This document shows positions 8,367 through 35,870 of a DNA stretch of 64,000 nucleotides, piece after piece. The notes under the pieces were generated by a model. It was not told where the DNA came from, ran no database searches, and saw only the letters and a program-made list of their open reading frames with translations. The stretch lies in contig NZ_JBGNYA010000001.1 in NCBI RefSeq assembly GCF_041477585.1, positions 1,240,001-1,304,000 of the forward strand, in the 5' to 3' direction. The translations under genes were made by a program, and so were the position numbers. Numbering within the stretch: the stretch's first letter is position 1; every line of letters begins with the position of its first letter. The DNA is from Halobellus sp. MBLA0158. Its GTDB lineage: Archaea; Halobacteriota; Halobacteria; Halobacteriales; Haloferacaceae.

Positions 8367-9110
8367 TCAGTTCGGGAGCGTCAGCTCGGAGGGAACGGTG
8401 ACGTCGTCCTCGACGGCCTCGATCCGTTCGAGGTTCGTCCCGGCGATCCGCGTCGACTCGACGAGCGCCCGGAGCTTGCCCAGCGGGATCTGTCCCGGGG
8501 CGTACTCGCTGTCGTCGTCGAGGAGCGGCGCGTAGCCGAGCTTAGAGCCGTAGACGTGTCCGATGGCGCGGGTGTGGCTGCCGATCTCGCCCATCGCGAT
8601 GCCGGCGGCGTCGATACCCGCCTCGGTGGCCTCCCGGAGCACGTCAAGCAGCGTCAGCGTGTCCGAGAGGTCCTTCGGGTAGACCGCGACCTTCGCGATG
8701 TCGCCGTAGCCCGCGCACTGGTCGATGATCGCGGTGAGGACGTCCTCGTCCGGCGTCGTCTCGAAGTCGTGGTGTGAGATGATCAGGCGGACGTCGTTCT
8801 CGCGGAACTCCTCGAGGATCCACTCCTTCGCCCGCGCGGTTTCGAGCTCGATGTCGACGTACGCGACGTCGTCGAACCGAGAAGCCGCGAAAAGCGTGTC
8901 CAATCGCCCTTGGTCCCGCGCCTTGCCGCCGAACCACTGATTGCGGTTCGTCGCGATGATCGGAAGCTCGCCGTCGTAGGATTCCAGTTGTTCGATCGGA
9001 TTTTCCGCCTTGTCCATACGAAATTCGACGATGTCTGCTTTCCCTCGGGCGTCTTTCTCCCGTGTGAGGTCGTTTGTTGTGGCCGCGAGGGCGAAGCCGT
9101 CGATCTTCAT
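8367..9110 (-). CDS. aroD: 3-dehydroquinate dehydratase, type I
   Basis: 247 residues, TIM-barrel class I enzyme. It converts 3-dehydroquinate to 3-dehydroshikimate in aromatic amino-acid synthesis through a Schiff base. Visible catalytic elements are EFRMDKAEN near residue 30, the general-base histidine in SHHDFETTPD, and the Schiff-base lysine Lys140 in AKVAVYP. C-terminal GEIGSHTRAIGHVYGSKLGYAP matches the family. The ATG at 9110 is preferred over a GTG two codons upstream (9116). The class I enzyme and a separate shikimate pathway start are typical of haloarchaea. Confidence 0.93.
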   Translation of the reverse strand: MKIDGFALAATTNDLTREKDARGKADIVEFRMDKAENPIEQLESYDGELPIIATNRNQWFGGKARDQGRLDTLFAASRFDDVAYVDIELETARAKEWILEEFRENDVRLIISHHDFETTPDEDVLTAIIDQCAGYGDIAKVAVYPKDLSDTLTLLDVLREATEAGIDAAGIAMGEIGSHTRAIGHVYGSKLGYAPLLDDDSEYAPGQIPLGKLRALVESTRIAGTNLERIEAVEDDVTVPSELTLPN

Positions 9111-9400
9111 TGTCACGCCGTAGCATCCAGGTGCATATAAATTTGGCCATCAGGCCGTTCACGGCACGTTCTGGCGAATTCGACGCGGCCGCTATGCTGA
9201 CAAAATACCAGAATTAAATTTGTAACAGATAAGAAACCTAAAAATAGTTTGAAAAGATAGAAAGGGCTTAATAGAGTACTAAATGCAGTAGAAACTAAAA
9301 TAGAATACTCAGATTACTGTTTTGTACACTAAAATACTGTTTAAATTACTGAAACGGGTGCCGCCTCACTTCGTCGTCATACAGCCACGGCCCGGCCGGC
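9111..9400. other. Gene-free stretch with an AT-rich core
   Basis: I see no coding frame here. Bases ~9190-9350 are strongly AT-rich, unlike the flanking genes, with many short A and T runs and no long inverted repeat. It holds the upstream region of aroD and the 3' flank of the MBL-fold gene. It may be a decayed transferred segment or a chromatin/replication-relevant spacer; the sequence alone does not say. Confidence 0.6.
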
Positions 9401-10051
9401 TCACGAGTAGGTGAGCGACCACTCGCGATTGAGCAGCCAGTCGTCGAGCTTTCCGAGCGGGTCGTCGTAGACGTGGCTCCCGTGACTCACGAGGACGGTC
9501 TCGATGTCGTACTCGAACAAGCGGCCCAGATTCCGTTCGGCGGCCGCGTGGCCAGCGTCGGCGAACTCCGCGGCCGGGGGGACGAGATACCCCGCGGGGA
9601 GTCCGCGCCGATCGGACCCCTCCAGGACGTCGCCGGCGATCAGAACCCCCTCGTCTTCGAGGAGGAAACTGCTGTTCGCGGCGGTGTGTCCCGGGACCTG
9701 GATCACGCGAACTCCGCCGTCGAGGCGCTCGTCGTGGCTGAAGTGGTGGTCGGCGTCGTAGTCGAGCGCGTCGTAGAATCCCTTGCAGCCGCCCGGCACG
9801 AGGAGTTCGGGATCGAACGCCTCCATCAGCGCGGGCACGCCGCCGAAGTGTCCCTCGTCGCCGTGGGAGACGATCAGCCGATCGACCCCGCCGTACTCGG
9901 ATTCGAGGGTGGAGACGACGTCCTCGCCGTCGTCGGGGAATCCGGCGTCGATGACGGTGACGTCGCCGGCGGGCCGGTCTTCGAGCACGAACACGCGGAC
10001 GTGATCTAACTGCACGACACCCACGCCGTCTGCTGGACTCTCGACTGACAT
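9401..10051 (-). CDS. MBL-fold metallohydrolase (paralogue 1)
   Basis: 216 residues, metallo-beta-lactamase fold. The metal motif is altered: where most hydrolases have HxHxDH, it reads His63-Gly-Asp65-Glu-Gly-His68. The later ligands VPGHT, IAGDVLEG and VSHGSH are kept. The conserved tail DPLGKLDDWLLNREW is shared with the gene at 10370. A TATA box lies 27 bases upstream and fixes the ATG at 10051; a longer frame upstream has no family similarity. Divergent from its paralogue across a region with two IclR-type palindromes. A lactonase or thioesterase role is possible; substrate unknown. Confidence 0.82.
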   Translation of the reverse strand: MSVESPADGVGVVQLDHVRVFVLEDRPAGDVTVIDAGFPDDGEDVVSTLESEYGGVDRLIVSHGDEGHFGGVPALMEAFDPELLVPGGCKGFYDALDYDADHHFSHDERLDGGVRVIQVPGHTAANSSFLLEDEGVLIAGDVLEGSDRRGLPAGYLVPPAAEFADAGHAAAERNLGRLFEYDIETVLVSHGSHVYDDPLGKLDDWLLNREWSLTYS

Positions 10052-23932: not shown

Positions 23933-25090
23933 CTACTGCGCGGGCGCGTCGGACTCGACGTCGACGCGCTCGTGGATCGGCCCCTCGCGTTCTTTGAGGT
24001 GCCGCGGCTCCCGCCCGTTCGAGACCGCCAGCGCCTCGCCCACGATGCTGTGGGCGATCTGGTAGGGCGACCCGCCGCCGAGGTCGAGTCCGACCGGCGT
24101 GTACAGCGACGCCAGTTGGGACTCCGTGTAGGTCTCGTCGAAGGCCTCGCGCATCTCCTCGAAGCGCTCGCGCGGCCCCATCAGGCCGACGTACGGCACG
24201 CCGGCGTCGAGCAACGACTCGACCGTGAGTTGATCGTCGACGAAGTTGTGCGTCATCACGACCGCGTAGGTCCGGTCGTCGAGGTCGAGGTCGTCCGGGA
24301 CGGTCGCGGGCGAGGTGGTGACGATCCGGTCCGCCGCGGGGAAGCGCTCGTCGAGGTCGACCGCGCCGCGGAAGCCGACGACCGTGACCCGGAAGTCGTT
24401 CTTCGCGGCGAACTCCGTGACGGGGCCGACGTCGTGGCCGGTCCCGAACACGACCAGGTCGGCCGGCGCGGCCAGCCCGTCGATGAAGACCTCGATTTCC
24501 GTCCCGTCGTGATCGACGGTGACGGTGTCGGCCTTTCCGTCCGCGGCCAGTTCGCCGGCCGGCCCCGCGAGCCCCGCCGGCCAGTCCGCCGCGTCGTCGC
24601 CGTCGGGCGTCCGCAGGGCGTCGCGCTCGGGGTGGTAGTACGCGCGGTCGCCCTGCTCGAACGCCGAGTCGCCGCCGTCGAGGACGGTGAGCACGCCGAC
24701 GTCTCTCCCCTCCGAGAACGCCTCGACGGCCGGGCGGTAGGTCTCCGAGAGGGGTTCGAGGAGGACCTCGATGACGCCGTTACAGCCGACGCCGAGTCCC
24801 CAGACGTCCTCGTCGTCGTCCTCCATCAGGTCGTAGGTGACGAGCTCGGGCCGACCGCGCTCGCGGACCCGGGCGCCGACTTTCACGAGTTCGTCTTCGA
24901 GACAGCCGGCGGTGATGCTGCCGACGCCCGCGCCCCCCTCGTCGAGGAGCATCTTCGCGCCGGGCCGCCGGTAGGCGTTGCCGTCGACGTCGACGATGGT
25001 CGCCAGGACGTCGGTGCCGCCGGCGTCGAGTCGGTCGCGGATGCGCTGTACTACCTCCGTCTCGGGAACGCTCCAGTTTCGCTGTGTCAT
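23933..25090 (-). CDS. XdhC/CoxI family molybdoenzyme maturation protein
   Basis: 385 residues. The N-terminal XdhC domain has RRPGAKMLLD and SITAGCLEDELV (a variant of the GGC motif), and the C-terminal Rossmann domain has VVFGTGHDVGPV and VGLMGPRERFEE. XdhC-type proteins bind the molybdenum cofactor, protect it and aid its sulfuration before insertion. This is the last gene of the cox operon, with an ATGA overlap at its start (25087-25090), so it probably matures the CO dehydrogenase. Confidence 0.88.
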   Translation of the reverse strand: MTQRNWSVPETEVVQRIRDRLDAGGTDVLATIVDVDGNAYRRPGAKMLLDEGGAGVGSITAGCLEDELVKVGARVRERGRPELVTYDLMEDDDEDVWGLGVGCNGVIEVLLEPLSETYRPAVEAFSEGRDVGVLTVLDGGDSAFEQGDRAYYHPERDALRTPDGDDAADWPAGLAGPAGELAADGKADTVTVDHDGTEIEVFIDGLAAPADLVVFGTGHDVGPVTEFAAKNDFRVTVVGFRGAVDLDERFPAADRIVTTSPATVPDDLDLDDRTYAVVMTHNFVDDQLTVESLLDAGVPYVGLMGPRERFEEMREAFDETYTESQLASLYTPVGLDLGGGSPYQIAHSIVGEALAVSNGREPRHLKEREGPIHERVDVESDAPAQ

Positions 25091-25956
25091 GGATTCGTGG
25101 ATTCGTCGTGGCTCTCGGTCGTCTCCGGCTGTGCTCGCTCGCCGCCCCTCCCGTCCGCCCGTTCGCCGAGCGCGACGCCCGCGGGGCGTGCCCCGGCGAC
25201 GTACACCTTCTCGACGCCGGCGTCGTGGAGGTCGGTGCCGCACGCCCCCGCCGCGACAGCCTCGCGAGCCCGCGAGCGGTCCGTGACCGACGCGCCGGCG
25301 ACGACGTCGACGCCCGCCTCGAACAGCGGCCCGGGGAGGAACGACGCGGTCGCCCCGATCACGATCACCGTCGCCTCGGCGGGCGCCGCCGCGAGGTACC
25401 GGTCGATGCCGCCGTAGATGAGCGCCGATCCGGTGACGAAGACGACCGCCGCGTCCGAGAGCGCCGCGTCGGCCCCGGCGGGCGTGTGGGTCCGCACCGC
25501 GATGCCGTCGGGGTCGGGCACGTCGTCGATCGGCTCGCGCTCGATCACCCTGACCTCGACGCCGTCGAACTTCCGGAACGCGGGGCCGAACAGTCCGACC
25601 GTCGCGATGCGCTCGACGTCGGCGTCGAGCAGCGCCATCGGATCCCCCGTCTGCCAGTCGACGAGCGGCGCCGAGAGCGCGTTCGCGGTCGCGATCCCGA
25701 GCGCCCGCTCGGCTCGTGTCGCGTCGTCGCACGCCCCGTCCAGCAGCGCTTCGACGTCGCGTTCGGCGGTCGCAGCCCCGCCGTCGACCCACTCGGACGG
25801 CCGGTGTGCCAGCCCGGCGTCGACCGCGCCCGTGTTCGTCTCCCGTATCTCGACGAGGACGACCCGCTCGCCGACCGTGATCCGCTCGATTTCGGTACTC
25901 CCGACGTCCCGCGCCTCGCGGATTCGATCGACCACGGCCCGAAGGATCCCGCTCAT
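25087..25956 (-). CDS. DUF364-type (putative heavy-metal chelation) protein in the cox operon
   Basis: 289 residues. The second half has a Rossmann-like core (TVGLFGPAFRKFDGVEVRVIER, then VFVTGSALIYGG and VIVIGATASFLPGPLFEAGVDVVAG) that matches DUF364, a family proposed to handle metals or pterin-bound metal, preceded by a DUF4213-like part. It overlaps coxE and xdhC by four bases at each end, so it is an integral part of the operon. A role in molybdenum or copper supply to CODH is inference. Confidence 0.72.
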   Translation of the reverse strand: MSGILRAVVDRIREARDVGSTEIERITVGERVVLVEIRETNTGAVDAGLAHRPSEWVDGGAATAERDVEALLDGACDDATRAERALGIATANALSAPLVDWQTGDPMALLDADVERIATVGLFGPAFRKFDGVEVRVIEREPIDDVPDPDGIAVRTHTPAGADAALSDAAVVFVTGSALIYGGIDRYLAAAPAEATVIVIGATASFLPGPLFEAGVDVVAGASVTDRSRAREAVAAGACGTDLHDAGVEKVYVAGARPAGVALGERADGRGGERAQPETTESHDESTNP

Positions 25957-27413
25957 CCGTCACTCCCCGCGTCGGCCGCGCGTTCGGTCCTGCGTCGGGC
26001 GTCGAACTCGTAGCCGACGCGCCGACCGAGCCCGCGCTGTTCGATCTGCCTCGCGGCTTCGGCGAGGTCCGCCGGCTCCGCGAAGCCGAAGAGGGCGTCG
26101 AGGTACGGCTCGACGGTCGCCATCCCCCGCGCCCGCGGCTCGTACTCGGGCGAGACGGCCAGGGGATTCAGCCAGATCACCGCGCCCGCGCGCTTCGCGA
26201 GCCAGGTGATCCCCCGCGCCAACACGTCGGGATCGCCCACGTCGAGGCCGTCGCTCACGACGACTACTACGGTACGCCGGTCGACGGCGTAGGGATGTTG
26301 CCGCCGGAGCGTCTCGAACGCGGCGCCGATCTGCGTCCCGCCGCCCCACTCGACTTCGGCCTCGCGGAGCGCCCGCGCGGGGTCGCCGCCGGCCCGCTCG
26401 AACTGCGGCGTGACGTCGACCAGGTCGGTGTCGAACAGGAAGACGTCCGCCGAGCGCGCGCTCGCGTGCAGCCGCTCGGCGACGGCGAGCAGGACGCTCC
26501 GATCGATCGTGTCGAGGACCGAGCCGCTCACGTCCACGAGCAGACAGCACCGCAGTTCGCTCGGGACCGGCTCCAGGCTCGGCAGGTCGATCGGCGCGCC
26601 GCCGGTGGCGAGGCTCGCCCGGAGCGCCCGCCGCGCCGCGACCTGCTCGCCCGCCGCGGCGTGGCGTCGGCGCCGCCCGGGCACCGTCGAGAGGGCGTCG
26701 ACGAAGCGCTCGATGGCGCCGACCTCCGCGCTCGTCAACTGCGCGGGGTCGACGTCGACGCGCTCGCGCCCGCCGACCGCGCTGTACCGCCGGGCGTCGC
26801 CCTCGCCCGTCGTCGCCGGGCGCTCGCCGGTCGCGTGCCGCCGCTCTGTGGGGATCCGGACGTCGGCGTCGCCCTCTCCTTCCCCGCTCATCTCCGGCGG
26901 CTCGGCGTCTTCGAGGATCCCTGCTTCGTCGCTCGCGGCCGACGCCGACTCGGGCGTGGGTACCGATCGGTCGTCGCCGCCGTCGCCGTCGTCGCCGGCG
27001 GTCGGGCCGTCGTGGTCGGTCCCGATGGCGCTCAGTCCCGAGCGGAGCCGGTGCCAGAACGTCTCGAAGGCGGACTCGAAGGCTTCGGTGTCGGTGGCCT
27101 CGGAGAGCATCGTCGCCCGCAGCGCGTGCTCCGCGCGAGTCTGGTCGTCCAAGCCGACGATCGCGAGCGCCCGCGCCGACTCCATCGTCGCGCTCGGCGG
27201 GACCGCCACGCCCTCGCTTCGGAGCCGCGCCGCGAGGCGGAGCAGCTCGATCAGGACGTGGCGCCGCGCCGCCCGGAAGTCGGGGACGCCGTCGTCGCTC
27301 TCGCCGACGCCCGGGCTCCCGCCGTCCGTCCGTCCGTCGCCGTCACCATCGTTGTCGCCGGGACCGGGCGGGCGTTCGGATGCGCGCTCGGCGTCGGCCT
27401 CCCTCTCGGTCAT
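25953..27413 (-). CDS. coxE: CoxE-like von Willebrand factor A protein
   Basis: 486 residues. The C-terminal vWA domain has the MIDAS motif LVDVSGS (DxSxS) and VVVSDGLDVGD; GGGTQIGAAF carries the MIDAS threonine. The first 240 residues are acidic and low-complexity with a helical core RRHVLIELLRLAARLRSEGV. CoxE works with the AAA+ ATPase CoxD to build the Mo-Cu active site of CO dehydrogenase. Separated by eight bases from coxD. The ATG at 27413 starts the acidic part. Confidence 0.85.
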   Translation of the reverse strand: MTEREADAERASERPPGPGDNDGDGDGRTDGGSPGVGESDDGVPDFRAARRHVLIELLRLAARLRSEGVAVPPSATMESARALAIVGLDDQTRAEHALRATMLSEATDTEAFESAFETFWHRLRSGLSAIGTDHDGPTAGDDGDGGDDRSVPTPESASAASDEAGILEDAEPPEMSGEGEGDADVRIPTERRHATGERPATTGEGDARRYSAVGGRERVDVDPAQLTSAEVGAIERFVDALSTVPGRRRRHAAAGEQVAARRALRASLATGGAPIDLPSLEPVPSELRCCLLVDVSGSVLDTIDRSVLLAVAERLHASARSADVFLFDTDLVDVTPQFERAGGDPARALREAEVEWGGGTQIGAAFETLRRQHPYAVDRRTVVVVVSDGLDVGDPDVLARGITWLAKRAGAVIWLNPLAVSPEYEPRARGMATVEPYLDALFGFAEPADLAEAARQIEQRGLGRRVGYEFDARRRTERAADAGSDG

Positions 27414-27421
27414 CTTCTGGA

Positions 27422-28387
27422 TCAGGCTTCGAGGCGTTCGTCGGCGGCCGCCGCGGCCGCCTGCAACTGTTCCAGCAGTTCGGTGTCCACGCGGTCGAGG
27501 TCCTCGGCCTCCTTGAGCAGACAGCCGAGCGTCCGCTCGATCTCGTCGGTCGAGAGCGGGCCGTCGTCCTCGTCGTGGCGGAGCTGCGCCACCGCCCGCG
27601 CCCAGTCCAGCGTCTCGGCGACGCCGGGCTGCTTGAGGAACGCCTCCTCCCGGAGCCGGTCGACGACGGCGCACACCTCGGCGGCGATCGCGACGTCGAG
27701 TTCGGGCACCTTCCGGCGCACGATCTCGTACTCGTCCTCGAAGGACGGCGGCTCGACGTGGAGGTACAGACACCGACGCTTGAGCGCATCAGAGAGCCCG
27801 CGCGTGCGGTTCGAGGTCAGCACGACCACGGGCGGCTGGTCGGCGGAGACGGTGCCGAACTCCGGGATCGACACCTGGAAGTCCGACAGCAGCTCCAGGA
27901 GGAACGCCTCGAACTCCTCGTCGGCGCGGTCGATCTCGTCGACGAGCAGGACGGGCGGCACCTCGCCGTCGGCGGTCAGCGCGCGCAGGAGCGGCCGTTC
28001 GAGGAGGTACTCCTCGTCGAATACCGAGCGGTCCCGCCGCGGGTCCCCGTCCCGTTGGCCCTCCGCCGGCGCGTCGCCCACGACGGACCCCTCGTTGGCC
28101 TGCACGGCCAGCAGCTGCTTCGTGTAGTTCCACTCGTAGAGCGCGTTCTCGGCGGTGAGCCCCTCGTAGCACTGGAGCCGGATGAGGTCTGTGTCGAACG
28201 CGCTCGCGAGTACCTTCCCGAGCTCTGTCTTGCCGCTCCCGGGCGGCCCCTCGACGAGCAGCGGCCGGCCCATCGTGAGTGCGAGATAGACCGACGTCAC
28301 GGTGCGGTCGTCGGCGACGTACTCCGCGTCGTCGAAGCGCCGTCGCAGGTCCGCCTCCGTCACGGACTCGAACGCGCGCCGGCTCAT
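27422..28387 (-). CDS. coxD: CoxD-like MoxR-type AAA+ ATPase
   Basis: 321 residues. Walker A GPPGSGKT (residues ~47-54), Walker B VLLVDEIDRAD, sensor 1 LTSNRTR and the arginine finger region ALKRRCLYLHVEPP are all present, as in MoxR/CoxD. In Oligotropha, CoxD is a membrane-linked chaperone ATPase needed for sulfur and copper insertion into the CODH active site. The stop of the XdhC-YHS gene overlaps its start by four bases (28384-28387). Confidence 0.9.
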   Translation of the reverse strand: MSRRAFESVTEADLRRRFDDAEYVADDRTVTSVYLALTMGRPLLVEGPPGSGKTELGKVLASAFDTDLIRLQCYEGLTAENALYEWNYTKQLLAVQANEGSVVGDAPAEGQRDGDPRRDRSVFDEEYLLERPLLRALTADGEVPPVLLVDEIDRADEEFEAFLLELLSDFQVSIPEFGTVSADQPPVVVLTSNRTRGLSDALKRRCLYLHVEPPSFEDEYEIVRRKVPELDVAIAAEVCAVVDRLREEAFLKQPGVAETLDWARAVAQLRHDEDDGPLSTDEIERTLGCLLKEAEDLDRVDTELLEQLQAAAAAADERLEA

Positions 28388-29487
28388 GCTGAGGCGGTCT
28401 CCTCTCCGTCCAGGTACGACTCGGGATCGTCGCGGAACGAGCCCGCACAGCCCTCACAGCAGAAGTAGTACGTCTCGCCGTCGTGTTCGACCGACGGGGC
28501 CGTCTCGGGGTCGGCGTCCATCCCGCAGACCGGGTCGGTCGCGAGCTCCGGGGGGTCGTCGGCGTCGGCATCGGCGTCGTCGTCCACGTCCGCGTTCGCG
28601 TCCGCATCACCCCCGACTTCGACCTCGCCGGCCCCGACGAGTCCCGCCTTCGACCGCGCTTCGACGACCTCGGCGAGGATGCTGACGGCGATCTCGGCGG
28701 GCGTCCGCGCGCCGACGTCGATGCCGGCCGGGCTCGTCACCGCGTCGGCGACCGACTCGGGGTCGGTCTCCGAGAGCGCCGCGGCGCGCTCGATGACCTC
28801 CTCGCCCCGCTTCTCGCTGGCGACGAGACCGACGTAGGGGGCTCCGGTACGCACGCCGGCGGCGACGCCGCGGGCGTCGAACTGCCCCATCGACGCGACC
28901 ACGACGAGGGGCGCGGGGCCGACGGCGTCGGCGATCGCCGCGGGGTCGGTCGTCGCGAGCGTCGTCGCGTCGCCGTGGTCGCCGCCCTCGGGGTCGACGA
29001 CCGTCACGTCGACGGCGAGCTCGCGGGCCAGTCGGGCGACCGAGCGGGCGATCGGTGAGTCGCCGACCACGAGCAGCGTCGGGCGCGGATTCACGGGCTC
29101 GACGAACAGTTCGAGGACGCCCTCGCTGTGGCAGTGCATCGGGAACGCCTCCAGCCCGGGGCGGTCCACGTCGTCGGGGTCGGGCGCGATTCCGACGAGT
29201 CGCGGCTCGCCGGCTTCGAGCGCTGCCTGCGCCTCGCTCGTCGCCGTCGTCTGCGCGCAGGCCGCGCCGCCGATCCACCCGTGGAGGTCGCCGTCGGCGG
29301 TCACGACCGCCCGGTCGCCGACGTTCGCCGACACCGGCGGTTCCCGGCGGACGACCGTCACCCTGGCGTACGGTTCGCCTCGCTCTTCGAGCGTTCGTTC
29401 CAGCGCCGCGACGTCGCCGTCGGTCGCGTCGGCGTCCGCCGGCGGCGTCTCTCCGTCTCCGCTCCCGTCTGTCTCGTGTCCTGTCAT
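28384..29487 (-). CDS. XdhC-family protein with C-terminal YHS metal-binding domain
   Basis: 367 residues. The N-terminal XdhC domain (GDRAVVT, GWIGGAACAQT) and Rossmann part (LLVVGDSPIARSVARLA) are joined through an acidic Asp/Ala linker to a YHS domain in the last ~50 residues: TDPVCGMDADPE, then YYFCCEGC. YHS domains bind transition metals, in copper ATPases among others. This fusion could carry metal to the molybdenum cofactor centre of CODH. Overlaps coxD by four bases; separated from coxL by 159 bases. Nearest named counterpart is CoxF. Confidence 0.85.
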   Translation of the reverse strand: MTGHETDGSGDGETPPADADATDGDVAALERTLEERGEPYARVTVVRREPPVSANVGDRAVVTADGDLHGWIGGAACAQTTATSEAQAALEAGEPRLVGIAPDPDDVDRPGLEAFPMHCHSEGVLELFVEPVNPRPTLLVVGDSPIARSVARLARELAVDVTVVDPEGGDHGDATTLATTDPAAIADAVGPAPLVVVASMGQFDARGVAAGVRTGAPYVGLVASEKRGEEVIERAAALSETDPESVADAVTSPAGIDVGARTPAEIAVSILAEVVEARSKAGLVGAGEVEVGGDADANADVDDDADADADDPPELATDPVCGMDADPETAPSVEHDGETYYFCCEGCAGSFRDDPESYLDGEETASA

Positions 29488-29646: not shown

Positions 29647-32140
<2,494 letters not shown>

Positions 32141-32148
<8 letters not shown>

Positions 32149-32872
32149 CTGTCTCCTCCGTGGTGTCGCGGTCGAGTTCTCCGTTCAGGTCGTCGAATCG
32201 GTCGTCTGGGCCCTCGATGTGCTCGTACGTCGAGTCCGCGGCCGGCCCGCCACAGCAGTTCTCGACGCCGCAGTCGAACGCGGCCGCCGAATCGCGCGCC
32301 GCGTCCGTGTTCGCGTCCGTGTCGGGCTCGGCTCCGGTGTCGCTCTCGCCGCTCTCGGCGACGACGCCGCCGTCTGCGGCCGCCTTCTCGTCGAGCTTGT
32401 CGGCCGCGTACTCGATCGAGCTGACGATGTTCTGGTAGCCGGTGCAGCGACAGAGGTTGCCGCTGATCCCCTCGCGGATCTCCGCCTCGTCGGGGTCGGG
32501 ATTCTCGTCTAGGATCGCCTTCCCGGACATCAGCATACCGGGGGTGCAGTACCCGCACTGGAGGCCGTGCTCCTCGCGGAAGCCCTCCTGGAGCGGGTGG
32601 AGGTCGCCGCCGGCCTCGGGGAGGTCTTCCATCCCCTCGACGGTGAGGATCTCGCTCCCGTCGGCCTGGGTGGCGAACATCATACAGGACTTGATCGGCT
32701 CGCCGTCCCGCAGGACGGTACAGGCGCCGCAGTTGCCCGTGTCGCAGCCGATGTGGGTGCCCGTCAGGTCCAGGTCCTCGCGGATCGCGTGGACCAGCAG
32801 GCGTCGCGGTTCCACCTCGATGGTGTGTTCGGTGCCGTTTACCGTCAGCGTGATCTCGCGTTCGTCTGTCAC
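32141..32872 (-). CDS. coxS: Carbon monoxide dehydrogenase small (2Fe-2S) subunit
   Basis: 243 residues. Two [2Fe-2S] clusters are encoded by Cys43, 48, 51 and 63 ([10 protein letters not shown], then SC), and by Cys106, 109, 141 and 143 (CGYC, CRC). The first 160 residues match CoxS. The usual protein ends near there, but this one goes on for ~80 acidic residues and includes Cys201, Cys206 and Cys207 in [11 protein letters not shown]. It passes electrons from the Mo-Cu site to the FAD subunit. Overlaps coxL by eight bases and coxM by four. Confidence 0.93.
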
Positions 32873-33756
32873 GGTGTGACCCTCCGTTTCACCACGCCGG
32901 CGCGCTCGGCGGCGTCGCCGAGCGCCCGCTGGGTGAGTACGTCGACCATTCGTTCCTTGTACGAGGCGTCGCCGTGCTCGTCGGACTCGGGGTTCGACTG
33001 CTCGGCGGCGAGTTCGCCCGCGTCCTCGAACAGCTCGGCGCTGGGCCGCTCGCCTTCGAGGCGATCCTCGGCGTCGGACGCGCGCGCGTTCGTGATGTCC
33101 ACGGCCGTCATCCCGATGCCGGCCTCCTCGATCCGGCCCTCGTCGTCGAAGCGGAGTCGGGCCCCGACGCCGGCCATCGCGTAGTCGCCGGTCTTGCGCT
33201 TCAGCTTGTGGTAGGCGCTGCCCTCCCGCTCGTTCGGGATCGGCACCCGCGCCTCGGTGATGAGTTCGTTCTCCCCCAGGGAGGTGTCGTAGGGGAGCAA
33301 GAACAGCTCGTCCGCCGGGATCGTCCGCTCGCCGTCGGGCCCGCGGGCGACCACTTCGCCGTCGTGGGCGATGAGGACCGATCCCCAGTCGCCCTTGGGA
33401 TCGGCCTGGGCGATCGAGCCGACGATCGTCCCGCGGTTCCTGATCTGGGGGTCGGCCACGAGCGGCGCCGCGTCGGCGAAACTGCCGTACTTCTCGGCGA
33501 TGAGGTCCGACTCCTCGATGTCGGCGTGCCGCGCCAGGGCCCCCATCTTGAGGTAGCCGTCCTCCTCGCGGAGGTAGTCCAGCGAGTCGATGCCGTTGAT
33601 GTCGACGACGGTGTCCGGGCGCGCGAGCCGGAATCGGAGCATCGGGACGAGGCTCTGGCCGCCCGCCAGGATGGTCGGGCTATCGAGGCTCTCCAGGAGG
33701 CTCACGGCCTTGTCGACCGTCGTGGGTTCGTGGTGCTCGAACTGGGCTGCTTTCAT
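32869..33756 (-). CDS. coxM: Carbon monoxide dehydrogenase medium (FAD) subunit
   Basis: 295 residues. The two FAD-binding stretches are [10 protein letters not shown] (residues ~32-41) and [20 protein letters not shown] (~105-124), followed by the CODH-type region [15 protein letters not shown]. Electrons leave through FAD, probably to quinone or a cupredoxin. The ATG at 33756 is chosen because [11 protein letters not shown] is the family N-terminus; it overlaps coxG by four bases. Confidence 0.92.
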
Positions 33757-34349
33757 AGCATATTCCGGAGCCGGTCTGTGACGCCGCCGCCGGTCTCCTC
33801 GTCGACGTCTGACATCTGCTTCTCGATGCTTCCGAAGAAGTTGTTCACGATCTTGTTGGCCACGGGGTTGATCACCCGCGAGCCGAGCTGGGCGATGCGG
33901 CCGGAGATGTCGGCCTCGGTCCACCACTCGATCCGGGAGCCCTCGCCCTCTTCGAGCTCGTGGATCCGCATCCCCGAGTTCATACTGAAACTGCTCCCCG
34001 AGGCGTCGCCGCCGCCGGAGGCGAGCATCTCGAAGTTCTCGTCGTCGCGCTCGTCGATGGTGACGGTCGTCTCGAAGCGCGGCTTCACGCTCCCGACGCC
34101 GATCTGCATCAGCGCCGCGTACTTCTGGCCCGCGACGAAGGCTCGCTCGGCGACGACTTCCGGGTCCGCGTCCGGCAGCGTCTGGATGTCCTCTTCGGGC
34201 TCGTACTCGTCGAAGTTGAAGTCGTCGTCCATCGGTGTGATGTACTTACACCCCTTCAGGGAATCGCGGACCGCGATCGGGTCCGACAGAACGATCCAGG
34301 CTTTCTCGGGCGGTACACCGTCTAACTCGAATTCTCCTTCAAATTCCAT
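33753..34349 (-). CDS. coxG: CoxG-like protein (SRPBCC/START fold)
   Basis: 198 residues. The START-fold CoxG core includes FEGEFELDGVPPEKAWIVLSDP and the DSLKGCKYI motif (normally P.C.PG, here D.LKGC), with WWTEADISGRIAQLGSRVI and a C-terminal helix FFGSIEKQMSDV. CoxG anchors CODH to the membrane and helps electrons enter the quinone pool in characterised systems. It is the first gene of the operon, with an ATGA overlap into coxM. An in-frame start at 34376 is less likely. Confidence 0.85.
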   Translation of the reverse strand: MEFEGEFELDGVPPEKAWIVLSDPIAVRDSLKGCKYITPMDDDFNFDEYEPEEDIQTLPDADPEVVAERAFVAGQKYAALMQIGVGSVKPRFETTVTIDERDDENFEMLASGGGDASGSSFSMNSGMRIHELEEGEGSRIEWWTEADISGRIAQLGSRVINPVANKIVNNFFGSIEKQMSDVDEETGGGVTDRLRNML

Positions 34350-34398
34350 AGTCCTGCTGTGTCGTTGGATTCGCACGGCGGTGGTCGCACGGCGTCAT

Positions 34399-34607: not shown

Positions 34608-35870
34608 ATGAGCGGCGAGATGGACCACGACCACGACGACCTCTTGGCGGTCGAGGCGGGCGCCGCGCGGGCCCGCGCGCTCCGGGAGCGATGGCTCCCC
34701 CGCCTCGGCACCGAGACCGTCGCCCTGGATCGGATCGCCGGCCGGACCCTGGCCGAACCCATCGACGCGCCGACGGCCGTGCCCGCACGGAGCCACGCGA
34801 CGATGGACGGCTTCGCCTTCGACGCCACCGACGACTATCCCCTCGACGTCGTCGACAGCGAGATCTACCCCGAGGACGACCCGCCCGCCATCGAGTCGGG
34901 CCAGGCCGTTCGGATCGCCACCGGCGCGCCGGTTCCGGCCTCGGCCAACGCGGTCCTCAAGCGCGAGGAGGCCCGGGTCGAGGAGGGAGCGCTGACCGGG
35001 ACGGACCTCGACCCCGGCACGTACGTCTACGAGCGCGGGAGCAACGTCGCCGAGGGCGAGCGCCTGTTCGCGGCCGGCGAGCGGCTCGGCCCGAAGGACG
35101 CCATCCTCCTCGGCGACCTCGGCATCGATTCGGTGACCGTCCGCGCGCCGCTCTCCGTGGGACTGCTCGCGACCGGCACCGAGATCCACGAGGGCCGCCA
35201 CCGCGACCTCGACTCGCCGATGCTCGCGGGGCTCGTCCGCTCGTGGGGCCACGACGCCGCCTACGAGGGCAGCGTCCCCGACGACTACGATCGGGTCGAA
35301 TCGCGGATCGAAGCGCTGGCCGACGAACACGACGTCGTGATGACCACCGGCGGGACGAGCGTCGGCGACAAGGACTACGTGATCCGCGCGCTCGATTCCC
35401 TCGGCGACGTCCTGTTCCACCGCGTGCGACTCCGCCCGGGCAAACCCATCGCCGTCGCGGAGCTCCCCGACCACGACGCCGTCGCGTTCGCGATTCCGGG
35501 CAAGCCCGTCGGCGCCCACGCCGTCACGTCGCTCGTCGCGCGCCCGTTCTTCACCGGCGAGACGGAGCTCCCGACGGTCGAGGCACGGATGGCCCGCGGC
35601 GTCGACATCGCCACGCCCGGCTTCGTGTACGCGATTCCGGTGACGCTCGACGACGCGGACGCGGATACGGGCGCGGACGCCGAAGCACGGACGGCGATGC
35701 CGCTCGGCCACGCGGACTCGCCGCTTGGGGTCTACGACCGGACCTTCGACCCGAGCGTCCTCTCGTCGAGCACGCGCGCGACCCGCGCGGACGGCTTCGT
35801 CCTCACCGAGTCCGACGTCGAGCGCGGCGACTCCGTCGGCGTCGTCCCCTACCCGGTCGTCGAGCGATGA
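34608..35870 (+). CDS. moeA: Molybdopterin molybdenumtransferase MoeA family protein
   Basis: 420 residues, MoeA fold. Visible are ATMDGFAFDATD (Mo-cofactor site), VRIATGAPVP, the GTEIHEGRHRDLDSPML segment, TTGGTSVGDKDYV and RLRPGKPIAVAE. It inserts molybdate into adenylylated molybdopterin. The usual PGNP is here IPGKPVG, a Lys for Asn. It lies back to back with the cox operon and overlaps mocA by four bases, so it is likely dedicated to CODH cofactor synthesis. The ATG at 34608 is chosen: the upstream in-frame sequence has no family pattern. Confidence 0.88.
   Translation: MSGEMDHDHDDLLAVEAGAARARALRERWLPRLGTETVALDRIAGRTLAEPIDAPTAVPARSHATMDGFAFDATDDYPLDVVDSEIYPEDDPPAIESGQAVRIATGAPVPASANAVLKREEARVEEGALTGTDLDPGTYVYERGSNVAEGERLFAAGERLGPKDAILLGDLGIDSVTVRAPLSVGLLATGTEIHEGRHRDLDSPMLAGLVRSWGHDAAYEGSVPDDYDRVESRIEALADEHDVVMTTGGTSVGDKDYVIRALDSLGDVLFHRVRLRPGKPIAVAELPDHDAVAFAIPGKPVGAHAVTSLVARPFFTGETELPTVEARMARGVDIATPGFVYAIPVTLDDADADTGADAEARTAMPLGHADSPLGVYDRTFDPSVLSSSTRATRADGFVLTESDVERGDSVGVVPYPVVER

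Follow-up and report, generated by a model that had tools for sequence, protein, structure and literature searches.

A large biological sink for atmospheric CO depends on aerobic CO dehydrogenase (CODH) and, to our knowledge, the route by which copper reaches the Mo-S-Cu centre of this enzyme is unsolved. A gene found in a 64,000-nucleotide stretch of the genome of Halobellus sp. MBLA0158 (hereafter the window) bears on this question, as its product joins an XdhC core to a C-terminal YHS domain: which member of the XdhC family is it, and what could a YHS domain do there? The analysis suggests that the YHS-bearing protein is the copper-step maturation factor CoxF, with the YHS domain acting as a tethered soft-metal site, probably for Cu(I), from which copper would be loaded onto the sulfurated molybdenum; from sequence comparisons, we give this reading a probability of roughly 0.6. 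A role for CoxF has already been published, and the presence of XdhC and YHS in one protein is visible to any viewer of domain annotations; what is new is the YHS-bearing form, which we did not find in print in the open-access PMC literature, where we also found no paper in which "YHS domain" occurs together with "XdhC" or with "carbon monoxide dehydrogenase". The terms "YHS domain" and "CO dehydrogenase" do co-occur in two selenium reviews.

The gene (28384..29487, minus strand) starts with ATG and encodes 367 amino acids, in which Pfam recognizes three domains, each exceeding its own cut-off. An XdhC_CoxI domain (residues 35-98; 29194..29385; E 1e-12) contains C77 and is followed by an XdhC_C Rossmann domain (residues 138-274; 28666..29076; E 2.8e-23), immediately ahead of which sits C119 in the motif MHCHSEG; both cysteines are invariant across 57 aligned CoxF. 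The YHS domain (PF04945; residues 317-360; 28408..28539; E 1.1e-13, 51.4 bits against a curated cut-off of 30.3) holds the four other cysteines of the protein, namely C321, C343, C344 and C347. The ligand set of YHS domains, an aspartate and three cysteines (PMC4626032), is found as D318, C321, C343 and C347, which are predicted as likely metal ligands and whose C-x21-C-x3-C spacing agrees with the TRASH spacing rule, C-x19-22-C-x3-C. The linker between core and YHS domain (residues 275-316; 28540..28665) contains 14 D/E and two K/R among its 42 residues and is partly disordered: in the AlphaFold2 model, pLDDT falls below 50 over residues 286-306, while blocks of ten residues score approximately 86-98 in the core and 87-97 in the YHS domain. 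The first-pass annotation of this DNA, which placed the motifs TDPVCGM and YYFCCEGC in a C-terminal YHS domain joined to an XdhC core through an acidic linker, is thus borne out by Pfam and by the linker composition. The acidity itself can be ruled out as a functional feature, since linkers of the other groups have median net acid fractions of 0.00-0.08, as against 0.26 for those of 40 haloarchaeal proteins; it is a haloarchaeal bias, the signature of a halophile, and no part of the mechanism. Another YHS domain of the same genome (G000:C2:141924-142070, locus L002) lies C-terminally in an ORF of about 474 amino acids that by eye resembles a membrane protein.

The fused gene had also been placed inside the cox operon, and it does lie between a form I coxL and coxD in a complete operon of the order coxG-coxM-coxS-coxL-coxF-coxD-coxE-DUF364-coxI-like xdhC, all on the minus strand. 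Upstream of it are coxG (33753..34376; Pfam COXG, 1.3e-17), coxM for the FAD subunit (32869..33756, start approximate; Pfam FAD_binding_5 and CO_deh_flav_C), coxS for the [2Fe-2S] subunit (32141..32872; Pfam Fer2 and Fer2_2) and coxL for the large subunit of form I CODH, with its AYRCSFR motif (29647..32148; TIGR02416, 1214 bits for a cut-off of 991). The stop codon of coxF overlaps the ATG of coxD (ATGA), which encodes a MoxR-type AAA+ ATPase (27422..28387; Pfam AAA_5, with NCBIfam MadB_ATPase below cut-off), and coxE encodes a VWA protein (25953..27413, start approximate; Pfam VWA_CoxE, 8.3e-41). Between coxE and the coxI-like gene (23933..25090; Pfam XdhC_CoxI and XdhC_C only, without YHS) lies a gene for a DUF364/DUF4213 protein (25087..25956), described by Pfam as putative heavy-metal chelation. 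It recurs in the other haloarchaeal cox loci (37 of 40; of the three lacking it, two are near contig ends), and no counterpart was detected at E 1e-3 in the bacterial cox loci sampled; its product is a candidate for a second metal factor peculiar to haloarchaea. At two haloarchaeal loci (L047 and L064), coxF-YHS is followed directly by DUF364, and no coxD or coxE was found in the stretch examined. A divergent moeA-like gene (34608..35870, plus strand; NCBIfam MoeA models below cut-off) is listed in 33 of the 40 haloarchaeal loci.

Three lines of evidence identify the fused gene as coxF. In a tree built from 93 of 187 distinct CoxF cores and 12 CoxI rows, the CoxF rows, including the window protein and CoxF of Oligotropha carboxidovorans, split from the CoxI rows with an SH-aLRT of 99 (quick method); the tree excludes cores shorter than 190 residues, together with several truncated rows, and the YHS rows of four groups were thinned by half. 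A loop signature, C-x-S-x-G, occurs in 189/197 CoxF ORFs versus 0/81 CoxI ORFs scoring above 100 bits, and the window protein displays it at C119, with neither the C-G/N-G loop of CoxI nor a place in the CoxI clade. Together with the position in the operon, the tree and the loop signature rule out a generic XdhC or a CoxI: judged by its sequence, the protein encoded at 28384-29487 is an orthologue of CoxF, and it is the XdhC encoded at 23933-25090 that is CoxI-like. Bacterial CoxF cores are 29-41% identical to that of the window.

An association of the fusion with form I cox clusters had been set as a test by the first-pass annotation, and in the genomes sampled the fusion is concordant with form I CoxL. 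Form I CoxL is present in 41 of 391 Halobacteria genomes, at 78-100% identity against at most 51% for the next relatives, and a CoxF protein (E <= 2e-51) in exactly the same 41. The YHS domain is present on CoxF in 40 of these 41 genomes, window included; in all 40 other genomes coxF is directly downstream of coxL, and every CoxL of these loci carries AYRCSFR. The exception (L073, genome G020, 8838-9890, minus strand) encodes a CoxF with the linker only and no YHS, in an ordinary form I cluster.

Bacterial samples were selected by CoxL rather than by YHS, the phylum being that of the search centre; Bacillota, Thermoproteota and others lie outside the sample, and the sampled genomes are related and hence not independent. 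In Chloroflexota, CoxL occurs in 54/251 genomes, at 54 places, and all 51 complete CoxF bear YHS, the remainder being two CoxF cut by contig ends and one place without CoxF on a short contig. In Actinomycetota (CoxL in 36/246 genomes, 39 places), YHS is present on 29 of 30 complete CoxF; two CoxF are cut and seven places show no CoxF in the stretch, two of which (L255 and L256) are long stretches from genomes with further CoxL copies. A CoxF without YHS occurs at L244 (7229-7945, minus strand), in an otherwise ordinary form I cluster of a group where YHS is the rule, and the domain has been lost at least here and in L073. Pseudomonadota are different: CoxL occurs in 13/299 genomes, at 14 places, and only two of 13 CoxF carry YHS, both from Paraburkholderia xenovorans. 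A search of the 299 genomes with the P. xenovorans CoxF gave matches in 52, the only fused places being two in P. xenovorans itself, and the 14 Pseudomonadota cox stretches showed no free-standing YHS. One of these loci (L173) is too short to judge, a CoxF-like match without YHS lying on another contig of its genome (G402). The 11 other Pseudomonadota CoxF and that of O. carboxidovorans form the YHS-less group that we call Oligotropha-type from its place in the tree. A GTDB-wide scan returned, among the matches listed, CoxF-YHS from Burkholderiales, Thermomicrobium, Dormibacterota, SAR324, an acidobacterial MAG and a myxobacterial MAG; its patterns were drawn from CoxF-YHS and are thus biased, so that it indicates breadth and not frequency, and its loci share some contigs with the Chloroflexota and Pseudomonadota samples, the distinct CoxF cores numbering 187. 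Being kept in all but one of the 41 haloarchaeal cox clusters and in bacteria, the XdhC-YHS fusion is more than a chance event.

Controls within the loci themselves bear on the specificity of this link. The domain is present on none of 90 CoxI-like ORFs of the same loci, and a CoxL with the CSF[R/M] motif is the nearest same-strand CoxL for 175 of 181 CoxF-YHS ORFs in the sampled loci, the other six being limited by their contigs (four CoxL cut ahead of the motif, two contigs without CoxL). The form II-type motif AYRGAGR was met nine times in these loci, never in the nearest same-strand CoxL of a CoxF-YHS. Variants of the form I motif were observed, namely AYACSFR at L217, L224, L226, L236, L239, L244, L246, L247 and L249-L252, and AYRCSFM at L077 (Caballeronia sp. 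SBC1). A search of 72,556 plasmid records gave 398 matches, six of them with at least 80% query coverage; the five of these that were examined all belong to cox clusters, and the sixth (H5) is a sister of one examined. P-type ATPases were the commonest YHS-only plasmid matches among those listed. Common fusions in operons of copper-free molybdoenzymes had been named beforehand as evidence against a copper link. None was seen in the sampled loci, nor any XdhC-YHS fusion beside a copper-free molybdoenzyme in the sampled genomes, the plasmid records and the GTDB-wide matches listed; the genome searches scored the best 2-7 places per genome, a depth at which weak non-cox fusions could be missed.

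What CoxF does has been studied by mutation in O. carboxidovorans, the gene of which is the only one shown to be required for copper in CODH. According to Table 1 of PMC4240915, CODH from the coxF mutant (F::km) contains 1.85 Mo, 1.40 S and 0.043 Cu per enzyme, the corresponding wild-type values, from cells grown in the same way, being 1.73, 1.53 and 1.47. An enzyme with molybdenum and sulfur and almost no copper places CoxF at the copper step, acting on a CODH that already holds molybdenum. CoxE is also absent from this mutant (PMC4240915), so that the copper loss is not cleanly attributable to CoxF. The same work proposed that CoxF supplies the copper, suspecting a site at MCPSHGTM and a phytase motif, assigned the sulfuration step to CoxD and used Cu(I)-thiourea to reconstitute apo-CODH (PMC4240915). 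Across our sequences neither motif is general: the phytase motif RHGxR (searched as RHG.R) is found in 3/187 distinct CoxF, and the two-methionine copper motif M-C-P-S-x-G-T-M in five of 12 Oligotropha-type rows. The core motif M-x-C-x-S was likewise rejected as a general copper site, its cysteine being invariant and its methionine not; our case is therefore not rested on it. Since the O. carboxidovorans CoxF works without YHS, the copper step does not require the domain in every lineage.

Because the published motifs are weakly conserved, YHS is near-universal on CoxF outside the Oligotropha type, and the YHS domain of an adenylyl cyclase responds to copper (PMC4626032), we propose a tethered Cu(I)-YHS. 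The XdhC core, with C77 and C119, would dock on apo-CODH activated by CoxD and CoxE, in which molybdenum would already have its sulfido ligand. The YHS domain, attached by a flexible linker whose length varies from protein to protein, would carry a soft metal, most likely Cu(I), on D318, C321, C343 and C347, and would pass it to Mo-SH and to the active-site cysteine of the CoxL motif AYRCSFR, giving the CuSMoO2 centre. That the YHS domain of CoxF binds Cu(I) and hands it over to CODH is what we infer from these comparisons. The idea from which the follow-up started, a single chaperone joining the molybdenum and copper supplies, survives in part. Its metal-linked reading of YHS is favoured by the tracking of form I cox clusters, by the requirement of a CoxF orthologue for CODH copper and by a copper-responsive YHS elsewhere; the joint supply finds no support, as the coxF-mutant enzyme keeps its full molybdenum and much of its sulfur (PMC4240915), and a supply of molybdenum by CoxF is not supported.

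Other functions of the YHS domain have to be weighed against copper loading. The domain could be a metal sensor that turns CoxF activity on or off according to the copper level of the cell, CODH receiving its copper from elsewhere. The one functionally studied YHS that we found behaves as a copper sensor, the C-terminal YHS of the Mycobacterium phlei adenylyl cyclase conferring a response to Cu2+ and not to the six other transition metal ions tested (PMC4626032), and the absence of YHS from Oligotropha-type CoxF, L073 and L244 would be easier to understand if the domain were regulatory. A sensor would however hardly call for such a near-strict link to the XdhC paralogue of the copper step, with no YHS on any CoxI copy of the same operons, and we consider it unlikely.

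Equally doubtful is a docking or structural module, containing zinc or free of metal, that would recruit CoxL, CoxD or CoxE rather than carry copper. It would fit the fact that CoxF adjoins CoxL or CoxD/E in all groups, and phenol hydroxylase chains carry a YHS-like stretch (PDB matches), the YHS of toluene-4-hydroxylase having been crystallized metal-free, as stated in PMC4626032. Conservation argues against it, as a pure docking module would have no need for cysteines. Of 169 distinct CoxF-YHS, 160 were pattern-matched, with the first cysteine in 159, the second in 159 and the third in 160, D or N before the proline in 159 and a first-to-second cysteine spacing of 21 or 22 in 159; all three, as C-x21/22-C-x3-C, are kept in 159/160. 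The nine unmatched sequences include variants with all three cysteines (e.g. DQVCGM) and a degenerate one (L112). Remnants lacking some cysteines were observed in Deinococcus sp. AJ005 (L075, 8986-10047, two cysteines lost) and in an actinobacterial MAG (L112, 4584-5525).

We give much less credence to YHS cysteines that carry sulfur, as a persulfide, for the sulfuration of molybdenum or that protect Mo-SH. XdhC proteins do act in sulfuration and protection of the molybdenum cofactor (PMC2997495), but the coxF mutant of O. carboxidovorans keeps 1.40 sulfane S per enzyme and loses copper, and sulfuration is assigned to CoxD (PMC4240915). That YHS was acquired once and has since been kept through linkage, serving no particular function, is barely credible: the origin was possibly single, with trees placing the YHS-bearing CoxF in one clade at least as good in AU tests (p 0.648 and 0.547), but almost every CoxF in three groups with cores far apart bears the domain, the cysteines of which are intact although the linker varies from 14 to 162 residues. 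The quick tree pointed to YHS first and its loss in the Oligotropha type, but in view of the AU tests gain and loss are both plausible.

A broader claim, to which we would give slightly less than even odds, is that YHS-bearing CoxF is the mainstream Cu(I) loading factor of Mo-Cu CODH in archaea and most bacteria, its YHS being the copper carrier that has long been missing from the picture of CuSMoO2 assembly. The only CoxF studied by mutation would then come from the one large lineage without YHS, the copper site and the phytase steps published for it being branch-specific or wrong, and another carrier would replace YHS there. As a near-constant fusion partner of the copper-step factor in the archaea and bacteria sampled, the YHS domain offers a concrete candidate for the carrier site, its three cysteines, and CoxF-YHS provides a sequence marker for the maturation clusters of Mo-Cu CODH. 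It also makes O. carboxidovorans, the model organism of the pathway, atypical.

Among the closest known systems is CoxF of O. carboxidovorans OM5 (Afipia; plasmid pHCG3), which shares with the window protein the two-domain XdhC core and the C-x-S-x-G signature and is its orthologue by tree and context; its gene directly follows coxDE, in the same place as the YHS-bearing Paraburkholderia gene, but encodes 280 amino acids without YHS. The best solved match, also combining XdhC_CoxI and XdhC Rossmann folds, is the M. smegmatis homologue of Rv0376c (2we7/2we8; phmmer 6.1e-10; Foldseek 1.3e-15; VIA-align Z 15.6, rmsd 11.7 over 236 aligned residues), in a structural alignment whose rows hardly bear on the YHS part, so that its failure to retrieve a known YHS fold carries no weight. 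Xanthine dehydrogenase needs no copper. It is served in R. capsulatus by XdhC (PMC2997495), and XdhC/CoxI chaperones differ from the window protein by their C-G/N-G type loop and, in the CoxI copies examined, by the lack of YHS. The YHS domain itself, with aspartate and three cysteines in the same pattern, recurs in heavy-metal P-type ATPases and, again at the C-terminus, in the M. phlei cyclase, which copper switches on (PMC4626032). In those proteins it is attached to a transporter or a cyclase, whereas in the window it is attached to an enzyme-maturation factor.
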